A DNA stretch of 64,000 bases from positions 62,001-126,000 of the forward strand of contig QCNT01000001.1 of assembly GCA_003213135.1 (NCBI GenBank). The letters are read 5' to 3'. The stretch comes from Pelagibacteraceae bacterium AG-426-I15 (lineage in GTDB: Bacteria > Pseudomonadota > Alphaproteobacteria > Pelagibacterales > Pelagibacteraceae). Positions 57,797 to 60,260 of this stretch are shown piece by piece; position 1 is the first letter of the stretch; every line of letters begins with the position of its first letter. Position numbers and translations under genes: made by a program. Below the pieces are notes generated by a model that saw only the letters and a program-made list of their open reading frames with translations, was not told the origin of the DNA and did no database searches.

Positions 57797-57824
57797 TTGA
57801 CACTTAGTTTAGAACTATTATAAA
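57797..57824 (+). promoter_or_regulatory. Sigma70 promoter of katG
   Basis: A perfect TTGACA (57797-57802), a 16-base spacer and TATAAA (57819-57824). Transcription should start around 57830-57832, four to six bases before the katG ATG at 57836, so the leader would be very short and would carry no ribosome-binding site. Confidence 0.7.
57808..57824. promoter_or_regulatory. Irr-box (ICE)-like operator over the katG promoter
   Basis: TTTAGAA CTA TTATAAA matches the alphaproteobacterial iron control element TTTAGAA-N3-TTCTAAA at 13 of the 14 defined positions. It covers the spacer and the -10 box of the katG promoter, a repressing position. The irr-like gene is immediately upstream. Confidence 0.6.
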
Positions 57825-57835
57825 GTAGATATAGT

Positions 57836-60007
57836 ATGAGCGTTGAACCTAAAAAAAATGGAAATGGCAAATGCCCTGTGATGCACGGAGGAGTTACTAA
57901 AGCAGGAGAGTCAAATACTTCGCGACTTTGGCCAAATAGTATTAATCTCGATATTTTACACCAACATGACACAAAAACTAATCCCCTACCAAAATTTAAC
58001 TATAAAAAGGAAGTAAAAAAATTAAATTTTAAAGCACTTAAAAAAGATTTACTAAAATTAATGACCGAAAGCCAAGAATGGTGGCCAGCAGATTTAGGAA
58101 CTTATAGTGGTCTTATGGTAAGACTAACTTGGCACCAAGTTGGAACTTATAGAGAATTTGATGGAAGACCTAACGTAGGATCTCATAGATTTTCCCCTCA
58201 GGACTCTTGGCCAGATAACACAAACTTAGATAAAGCAAGACGTCTTCTTTGGCCAATTAAAAAAAAATATGGAAATAGATTAAGTTGGTCAGACCTTATG
58301 GTTCTAGCTGGAACTATGGCTTATGAGCATTCTGGATTTAAAACTTTTGGCTTTTCATTTGGCAGAGAAGATATATGGGAGCCTGAAAAAGATGTTTATT
58401 GGGGTAAAGAGACAGAACCATTAGCAGTTAACAGATATGGTGATCCACAAGATCGTTCTTCTTTAGAGGCTCCACTTGCGGCGTCACATTTTCAACTTGT
58501 ATATGTTAACCCTCAAGGAGTTGAAGGAAAACCTGATCCAGTAAGAACCGCGATGGATGTGCGTGAAACGTTTGGGCGAATGGGAATGAACGACGTAGAA
58601 ACTGCAGCTCTCACAGTCGGAGGCCACTCTATCGGAAGGGCTCATGGTAATGGTAATCCAGACAATTTAGGTCCAGAACCCGCTGGAGCTGATATTCACG
58701 AACAAGGTTTTGGATGGAATCAAAAAAATGGAACAGGTGCTAACCAAATAACCTCAGGTCTCGAGGGGGCTTGGACAACTAACCCCGACAAATGGGATCA
58801 TCAATACTTAGATCTTTTACTTAACTATGAGTGGGAAAGTAAAAAAAGTCCCGCAGGCGCTTGGCAATGGGAACCTATCAATCTAGAAGAAGATAAAAAG
58901 CCGAGAGATTTAGGAGACCCCAACAAAAAAGCTAGATTAATGTTTACTGACGCCGATATGGCGATGGCGATGGATCCAGAGTATAGAAAAATTTCAGAAA
59001 GATTTTATAAAGATCCAAAATTCTTTGAAGACTCATTCGCGCGTGCTTGGTTTAAGTTAACACATAGAACAATGGGAAATAGAGAAAATTATATTGGTCC
59101 TTGGGCACCCAAAGAAGATCTACTCTGGCAAGGTAACGTTCCATCTCCAAAAAAAAAATATAATGTAAATAAGGTAAAAAAAATGATTTCAGCTTCCAGC
59201 TTATCTACTAGTGATTTAATTACCATTGCTTGGGATAGCGCGAGAACATATAGAAGGACTGACAAAAGAGGAGGAGCTAATGGTGCAAGAATTCGATTAG
59301 CACCTATGAAGGACTGGGAAGCAAACGAGCCAAAAAAACTGTCAAAGAATTTAAAAGTGCTTGAGAATATAGCTAATAAGACAGGAGCAACTATAGCAGA
59401 TACAATTATTCTTGCAGGTAATGTCGGGCTTGAAAAGGCGATAAAGAAAGCTGGTTCTAAAGTCAAAGTTCCATTTAGTCCTGGCAGAGGAGATTCGTCC
59501 CAAGAGCAAACAGAATTAAAAAGTTTCAAGTGGTTAGAACCTCTGCATGACGGATTCAGAAACTATGTAAAAGCAGATTACTCAGTGATGCCAGAAGAAC
59601 TTCTATTAGAACGCGCTTCTTTAATGGGATTGACCGCACAAGAAATGACTTGTTTGGTTGGAGGTATGAGAGTGCTGGGAACAAATCATGAGTCAGCAAA
59701 AGATAAAGGAGTTCTCACAAGTAAGGTCGGTACTTTGACAAATGATTTCTTTATTAACTTGGTAGATATGAAATATATTTGGAAACCGACTGGTAAAAAC
59801 TCTTACGATATAATTGATCGTAAAACAAATAAAGTTAAATACACCGCTTCTAGAGCAGACCTAGTTTTGGGTTCAAATTCAATTTTAAGATCTTATGCAG
59901 AGGTGTATGCTCAAGATGACAACAAAGAAAAATTTATAGAAGACTTTGTTAAAATCTGGGTAAAAATTATGAACGCAGATAGGCAAGGGCATAGAAATTT
60001 AAACTAA
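57836..60007 (+). CDS. katG: Catalase-peroxidase KatG
   Basis: A bifunctional heme enzyme of 723 residues that removes hydrogen peroxide. The distal triad Arg96-Trp99-His100 lies in [13 protein letters not shown], and the proximal His264 in [11 protein letters not shown]. The catalase-specific Trp-Tyr-Met adduct can be placed as Trp99, Tyr223 (LVYVNPQG) and Met249 (FGRMGMND), so it should be a true catalase. The C-terminal repeat domain is complete ([30 protein letters not shown]). No signal peptide. A promoter with an Irr-box-like site precedes it. The DUF2061 gene follows after one base. Base composition is slightly less AT-rich than in its neighbours. Confidence 0.96.
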
Positions 60008-60008
60008 A

Positions 60009-60260
60009 ATGACAGAATTAACTTCTGGCATATTTAACGCCACAAAAAAAATCTACAATTCAAACAAAGGTTCGATTTTAAGAACAATTATTTACACTAT
60101 TGGTCATTTTATAATCGCTATTGTTGTACTGAAAGCTGTGGCAGATGTAACATTTACAGAAGCAATGACAGACGCAATAGTTGAGCCTCTAGCAAATTCA
60201 GTATGGTATTTTGTTTTAGATAAAATATGGGTTTCCAAAGTTTTTTCAAAAAAAAAATAA
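60009..60260 (+). CDS. DUF2061 small membrane protein
   Basis: An 83-residue protein with two hydrophobic segments (about 20-42 and 47-70), matching DUF2061: ILRTIIYTIGHFIIAIVVLKAVADVTFTEA and IVEPLANSVWYFVLDKIW. The function is unknown. It starts one base after the katG stop, so it is almost certainly cotranscribed with katG and may be iron- or peroxide-regulated with it. Confidence 0.8.
   Translation: MTELTSGIFNATKKIYNSNKGSILRTIIYTIGHFIIAIVVLKAVADVTFTEAMTDAIVEPLANSVWYFVLDKIWVSKVFSKKK

Follow-up and report, generated by a model that had tools for sequence, protein, structure and literature searches.

The analysis suggested that irr, katG and a DUF2061 gene, together with an iron control element (ICE) on the katG promoter, form a single-operator unit of peroxide defence that is repressed by Irr and that arose by replacement of a rubrerythrin cluster; from the sequence comparisons described below, we regard this reading as quite likely. 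The unit lies in the window, meaning the whole 64,000-nucleotide stretch of DNA that was analysed, which belongs to a genome assembly of 976,624 bases. Irr, encoded directly upstream, would bind the palindrome at 57808–57824 and block RNA polymerase, leaving katG repressed. As in the Irr proteins that have been studied, apo-Irr would bind and repress at low heme or iron, and a heme enzyme would thus not be made without heme. Release of Irr, again as judged from studied Irr proteins, would turn katG on, either through heme at the HHH cluster or through oxidation of the metal-loaded ligands by peroxide. The katG-DUF2061 pair would have taken the place of irr-linked genes for rubrerythrin, an Fe-S oxidoreductase and DUF3501, with the operator kept or re-evolved, and peroxide defence would here be a cartridge that can be exchanged while its switch stays the same.

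The katG promoter and its putative Irr operator

The irr gene (57351–57773, forward strand) encodes a Fur-superfamily regulator of the Irr type of 140 aa, assigned by Pfam FUR, its best NCBIfam match IrrA (below the curated cut-off) and its synteny with fabA (56773–57279, reverse strand; Pfam FabA, 1.4e-42), the divergent neighbour and a conserved synteny marker. Downstream, katG (57836–60007, forward) encodes a catalase-peroxidase HPI of 723 aa that scored above the NCBIfam cut-offs of both PRK15061 (1025 bits) and TIGR00198 (1016 bits); it aligned over nearly its full length with the solved KatG 3wnu, and its motifs RLTWH, YVNPQG, RMGMND and GGHSIG matched those of 3wnu in the alignment. A single base separates the katG stop from the start of a small DUF2061-type membrane protein gene (60009–60260, forward). 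The window protein itself reached 19.2 bits against the PF09834 cut-off of 23.1, while all seven of its homologues examined matched that family (best E 1.8e-7), and the gene adjoined katG in 22/22 congeneric loci of the katG-A lineage with a contig extending past katG; it is probably co-transcribed with katG. An SH3-domain protein gene (60268–60714, reverse; Pfam SH3_4) marks the end of the slot; it comes after katG-DUF2061 and, in relatives whose sequence extends far enough, after the rubrerythrin cluster.

The katG promoter consists of a -35 hexamer TTGACA (57797–57802, forward), invariant in 23 congeneric genomes, and a -10 hexamer TATAAA (57819–57824, forward), both read directly and separated by a 16-base spacer. 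The putative Irr operator TTTAGAA-CTA-TTATAAA (TTTAGAACTATTATAAA; 57808–57824, forward) matched TTTAGAA-N3-TTCTAAA at 13 of 14 positions, with its left half inside the spacer and its right half containing the -10 box; the one mismatch, an A in place of C within the right half, may be a demand of TATAAA. The first-pass annotation had proposed that an Irr box overlaps the katG promoter, and had named conservation of both half-sites upstream of orthologous katG genes as a check. Its coordinates and base counts for the promoter, ICE, irr, katG and the DUF2061 gap were correct on direct reading, the predicted box stands as described, and all 14 core columns were invariant across the 23 genomes of the genus, with identity of 93% in the three-base centre and 82% over the remainder of the gap between irr and katG. 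The invariance of TTTAGAA counts in favour of an operator, as sigma-70 needs no particular sequence in the spacer. Because the palindrome covers the -10 box as well as the spacer, bound Irr would be expected to repress katG. Together, position and conservation make the adjacent Irr the probable switch of katG. In the window, the katG ATG lies 11 bases past the -10 box (57819–57838), which would leave an mRNA leader of only about 5 bases from a predicted start near 57831; the leader is equally short in congeners L021 and L033 and about 26–35 bases long in other congeners.

Loose matches to the motif were at background, with 38 sites in the window at up to three mismatches against 40.9 expected, and 60 genome-wide at up to two mismatches against 136 for a reversed control pattern; the claim therefore rests on position and conservation, not on motif count. 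At up to one mismatch, the genome held three sites, two of them within other ORFs, leaving the katG site as the only such promoter site found; the motif is thus not common throughout the genome. Commonness was among the grounds that the first-pass annotation had named for abandoning the idea, and none of those grounds that could be checked by computation held. An independent set was provided by a scan of public genomes with an Irr alignment, which yielded 80 named loci. An ICE with up to two mismatches followed irr in 78 of these and lay between fabA and irr in 70. Within the 110 bases after irr at 79 Pelagibacteraceae loci, 52 carried a site with at most one mismatch and 77 a site with at most two, and dinucleotide shuffles of the same loci gave expectations of 0.03 and 0.72. 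L167, counted as having no site after irr, has an ICE that overlaps the irr stop codon, and L158 carries irr and katG with no site in the gap between them. No ICE was found upstream of four Redoxin-family genes of the window's genome, and none within three mismatches in the fabA-irr gap of the 23 genomes of its genus, so autoregulation seems to have been lost there.

The site was also tied to the presence of irr. Upstream DNA could be read for 62 katG genes; at up to two mismatches, the site stood before 36/37 of those in genomes with irr and before 2/25 of those in genomes without (Fisher 1e-13, a value inflated by the relatedness of the genomes). Only four independent contrasts on the KatG tree were well supported; they agreed almost every time, and their number is too small for such a test to reach significance. 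More telling was the gradient among eight irr-less genomes that keep the katG-B lineage at the fabA locus, with 1, 2, 3, 3, 4, 5, 5 and 5 mismatches. Two genomes of the sister family (G074 and G100) have the katG site and carry irr elsewhere in the genome. G062 has irr and only a three-mismatch site at katG, and G035 has the site with no irr found in an assembly that is 83% complete; some assemblies being incomplete, such an absence of irr may be false. The irr-less lineages offer natural material for study.

These patterns bear on two other accounts of the palindrome. An AT-rich promoter might resemble an ICE by chance, given that weak matches are at background and that TATAAA is expected in any promoter. 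However, the left half is invariant in the spacer, the shuffles yielded next to no sites, presence of the site is linked to that of irr, and the same site stands before rubrerythrin and before irr; we rejected chance resemblance, which would be hardly credible on this evidence. The window also contains a second Fur-family gene (41747–42124; Pfam FUR 1.3e-35), whose best NCBIfam match is the ferric uptake regulator, and its product might bind the palindrome instead of Irr. Against this, irr-less genomes with a Fur homologue (e.g., G029, G007, G003, G038, G050, G041 and G051) have no intact site. Since the site tracks irr and not fur, control of the katG site by Fur was likewise rejected as very improbable.

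The sign of control was approached through promoter geometry at loci with a findable TTGAC -35, where an ICE either abutted the -35 box on its upstream side (class U) or lay between the -35 and -10 boxes and overlapped the latter (class D). Rubrerythrin promoters comprised 16 U, 8 with both and 1 D; katG-B promoters 18 D, 13 with both, 5 U and 1 with neither; and katG-A promoters 6 D, with 11 having no recognised TTGAC. The window's katG promoter has D alone. In promoters with both, the commonest start-to-start distance was 31 bases, about three helical turns, which suggests paired Irr dimers. D is a repressor position; U could have either sign, as Irr represses or activates depending on ICE position (PMC7762939). 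That dependence, together with the ICE abutting the -35 box in many katG-B and most rubrerythrin promoters, would allow Irr to activate katG, or to act with opposite signs under different conditions. The window's only ICE, however, lies between the -35 and -10 boxes and over the latter, the classical position of a repressor, and we consider activation unlikely. Two ICEs flanking the -35 box, about 31 bases start to start, were seen before katG or rubrerythrin at L056, L051, L174 and L157. In the sister family, ICE-like sites of the kind found at L126 (2954–2970) recur between a 1-Cys peroxiredoxin gene and an MBL-fold gene, and others, as at L128 (2854–2870), precede a Redoxin-family peroxiredoxin gene beside iron transporter-like genes.

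Exchange of katG and rubrerythrin behind irr

The gene following irr at the 80 named loci was katG-A in 17, katG-B in 37 and rubrerythrin in 25, with one off the contig. At the 79 readable Pelagibacteraceae loci the slot thus held either rubrerythrin or one of the two katG lineages in every case, and almost all of these genes stood behind an ICE. Across 247 genomes of the family, 173 carried katG, 40 carried rubrerythrin and none carried both; irr was present in 40/40 rubrerythrin genomes and in 134 katG genomes, and one genome, 62% complete, had irr with neither gene. This gives a simple rule: Pelagibacteraceae with irr keep a peroxide gene behind irr and one type of operator, either katG or the rubrerythrin cluster and not the two together. 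Where relatives have rubrerythrin, the ICE was followed by rubrerythrin, an Fe-S oxidoreductase and a third protein, which is taken to be DUF3501; rubrerythrin alone was confirmed by HMM.

A class-wide sample, the 30 best-scoring irr loci across Alphaproteobacteria, had rubrerythrin within about 330 bases downstream of irr in 27/30, which makes the irr-rubrerythrin pairing look ancestral and katG derived. An irr gene with a peroxide-defence gene downstream is an old alphaproteobacterial arrangement. The description of the katG unit as self-contained and as a possible clade-specific accessory did not hold, as katG-DUF2061 sits in this old irr slot. The comparison of loci suggests that katG-DUF2061 probably replaced the ancestral rubrerythrin cluster in place, and that control by Irr was probably kept or re-evolved through the swap, the two fitting equally well. 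On a tree of FabA and FabB from 99 loci, the two-state pattern needed about 15 switches between katG and rubrerythrin, at least 8 of them forced by strongly supported branches, although recombination could inflate this count because the tree uses two linked neighbouring genes. At L238 (G093:C25), a rubrerythrin gene carries a perfect ICE, and no irr or fabA was detected in the preceding ~3 kb of the contig. In four genomes that have irr (G236:C1:295813, G156:C4:77268, G184:C1:104283 and G266:C23:69584), the katG belongs to the 69%-identity type and contains one or two in-frame stop codons.

No heterotrophic bacteria are more abundant in the surface ocean than SAR11, and which organisms clear hydrogen peroxide from these waters is a question of ecology, as with the helper microbes for Prochlorococcus (PMC3033426). 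The presence of katG in most offshore Pelagibacteraceae genera has already been reported as an offshore trait (PMC12636525), which our findings connect with a regulator and a promoter. Field data on iron and peroxide could now be used to test what decides between a heme enzyme and a non-heme iron enzyme.

The Irr protein and its possible signal

The product of irr matched PF01475 above its cut-off (5.7e-20), and IrrA (137.8 bits, 2.2e-40) and Irr (124.3 bits) were by far its top NCBIfam models, with scores below the curated cut-offs of 150 and 170 bits. The gene lies between fabA and a peroxide-defence gene, an order shared with other alphaproteobacterial irr. Top profile matches among solved structures were 5nl9 and 2fe3, both PerR, the former from Leptospira. 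The 140-aa protein contains no cysteine, and hence neither a heme regulatory motif (Cys-Pro) nor a Cys4 or C-terminal CxxC zinc site. The sub-threshold Irr scores and the missing heme regulatory motif count against the proposed unit. That motif is not universal in Irr and is also missing from Brucella Irr (PMC3413700), having no CxxC zinc site is typical of Irr (PMC8638967), and the Cys4 site is not universal in PerR. The HHH cluster H96-H97-H98 was invariant in 13 SAR11 Irr proteins, as were all five PerR-type metal ligands; H37, D85, H91, H93 and D104 of B. subtilis PerR (2fe3) correspond to H41, D90, H96, H98 and D107. As the HHH cluster and the PerR ligands are both kept, the sequence by itself leaves heme, iron and peroxide all as candidate signals, and the iron- and heme-responsive character of the unit would follow by analogy with other Irr proteins.

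One published iron experiment on SAR11, the only one found, bears on the iron signal. Under iron limitation, mRNA of the rubrerythrin SAR11_0399 of Ca. Pelagibacter ubique rose 1.57-fold, and the Fur and Irr proteins showed no significant change (PMC2864753). SAR11_0399 is presumably the irr-linked rubrerythrin, judging from the P. ubique single-cell genome L174, which has the order irr-ICE-rubrerythrin and in which ICE-like sites flank the -35 box of the rubrerythrin promoter. So small a rise argues against simple repression of rubrerythrin at low iron and says nothing directly about katG; polarity may differ between the two, as most rubrerythrin promoters carry the ICE upstream of the -35 box.

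Irr might instead act mainly as a PerR-like sensor of peroxide, not of heme or iron, with metal-catalysed oxidation of histidine releasing katG. The invariant PerR-type ligands, the PerR structures at the head of the profile matches and the cysteine-free protein would all suit such a sensor, as would the ICE targets in Pelagibacterales, namely katG and rubrerythrin, joined in the sister family by the 1-Cys peroxiredoxin/MBL promoter and the Redoxin-family peroxiredoxin. A study of Leptospira PerR describes a common aspartate in Irr and PerR, responses of both at similar levels of oxidant and many target or effector genes in common (PMC8638967), and rubrerythrin was not repressed by iron limitation in Ca. 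P. ubique (PMC2864753). However, heme-sensing Irr proteins have the same residues, and the HHH cluster of studied Irr proteins binds heme. The literature searched contained no peroxide experiment on a SAR11 Irr. We consider a mainly peroxide-sensing Irr a serious prospect that nonetheless falls short of an even chance. A broader and slightly more tentative proposal is that Pelagibacterales Irr is a local PerR-like peroxide switch, not a global iron regulator, which would guard one interchangeable slot where rubrerythrin and two katG lineages have been swapped repeatedly, with the operator kept or rebuilt and eroding where irr is absent.

Comparison with known systems

Irr and ICE, Irr acting on peroxide-related genes and katG in offshore SAR11 (PMC12636525) are already known. 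A search of the literature found no paper combining Irr, SAR11, hydrogen peroxide and regulon. The main prediction of the ICE regulon is reportedly that of Rodionov et al. 2006. In the literature searched, which lay outside that work, we found no ICE on SAR11 katG, no irr-linked exclusion of katG and rubrerythrin and no repeated swap; in view of Rodionov et al. 2006, we make no claim to priority for ICE sites close to irr or rubrerythrin in SAR11.

The system resembles the rhizobial type of Irr/ICE control (Bradyrhizobium, Rhizobium and Brucella) in its Fur-superfamily Irr, the palindrome TTTAGAA-N3-TTCTAAA and the HHH/HXH motif. In contrast to the wide rhizobial-type regulon of heme synthesis, iron storage and transport, katG has the sole promoter site with at most one mismatch found in the window's genome, and the Irr encoded there has no heme regulatory motif. 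Rhodobacter sphaeroides Irr is similar in having peroxide-related genes as targets, binding the promoters of mbfA (with a rubrerythrin-type domain) and ccpA (cytochrome c peroxidase); however, it does not bind the catalase gene katE (PMC3413700), which, by analogy, counts against our reading of Irr and katG, whereas in the window the katG promoter carries an ICE and irr is the next gene upstream.

The offshore katG report describes the same difference in gene content, and the passage concerned mentions neither regulation nor replacement of rubrerythrin (PMC12636525). The aerobic-type rubrerythrin cluster of rubrerythrin, Fe-S oxidoreductase and DUF3501 (PMC5114695, in whose text a search found no mention of irr) occupies the same slot behind irr and an ICE in relatives, and the relatives' rubrerythrin has no rubredoxin domain, a trait shared with that cluster and with ferriperoxin (PMC3317640). 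That cluster encodes a di-iron enzyme, whereas the window has the heme enzyme KatG, together with DUF2061, in its place. PerR-controlled catalase units are similar in placing a Fur-family regulator with the same ligand positions over a catalase gene, but HMM matches and synteny place the window's regulator with Irr; it has no Cys4 zinc site, and its putative operator is an ICE, not a Per box.
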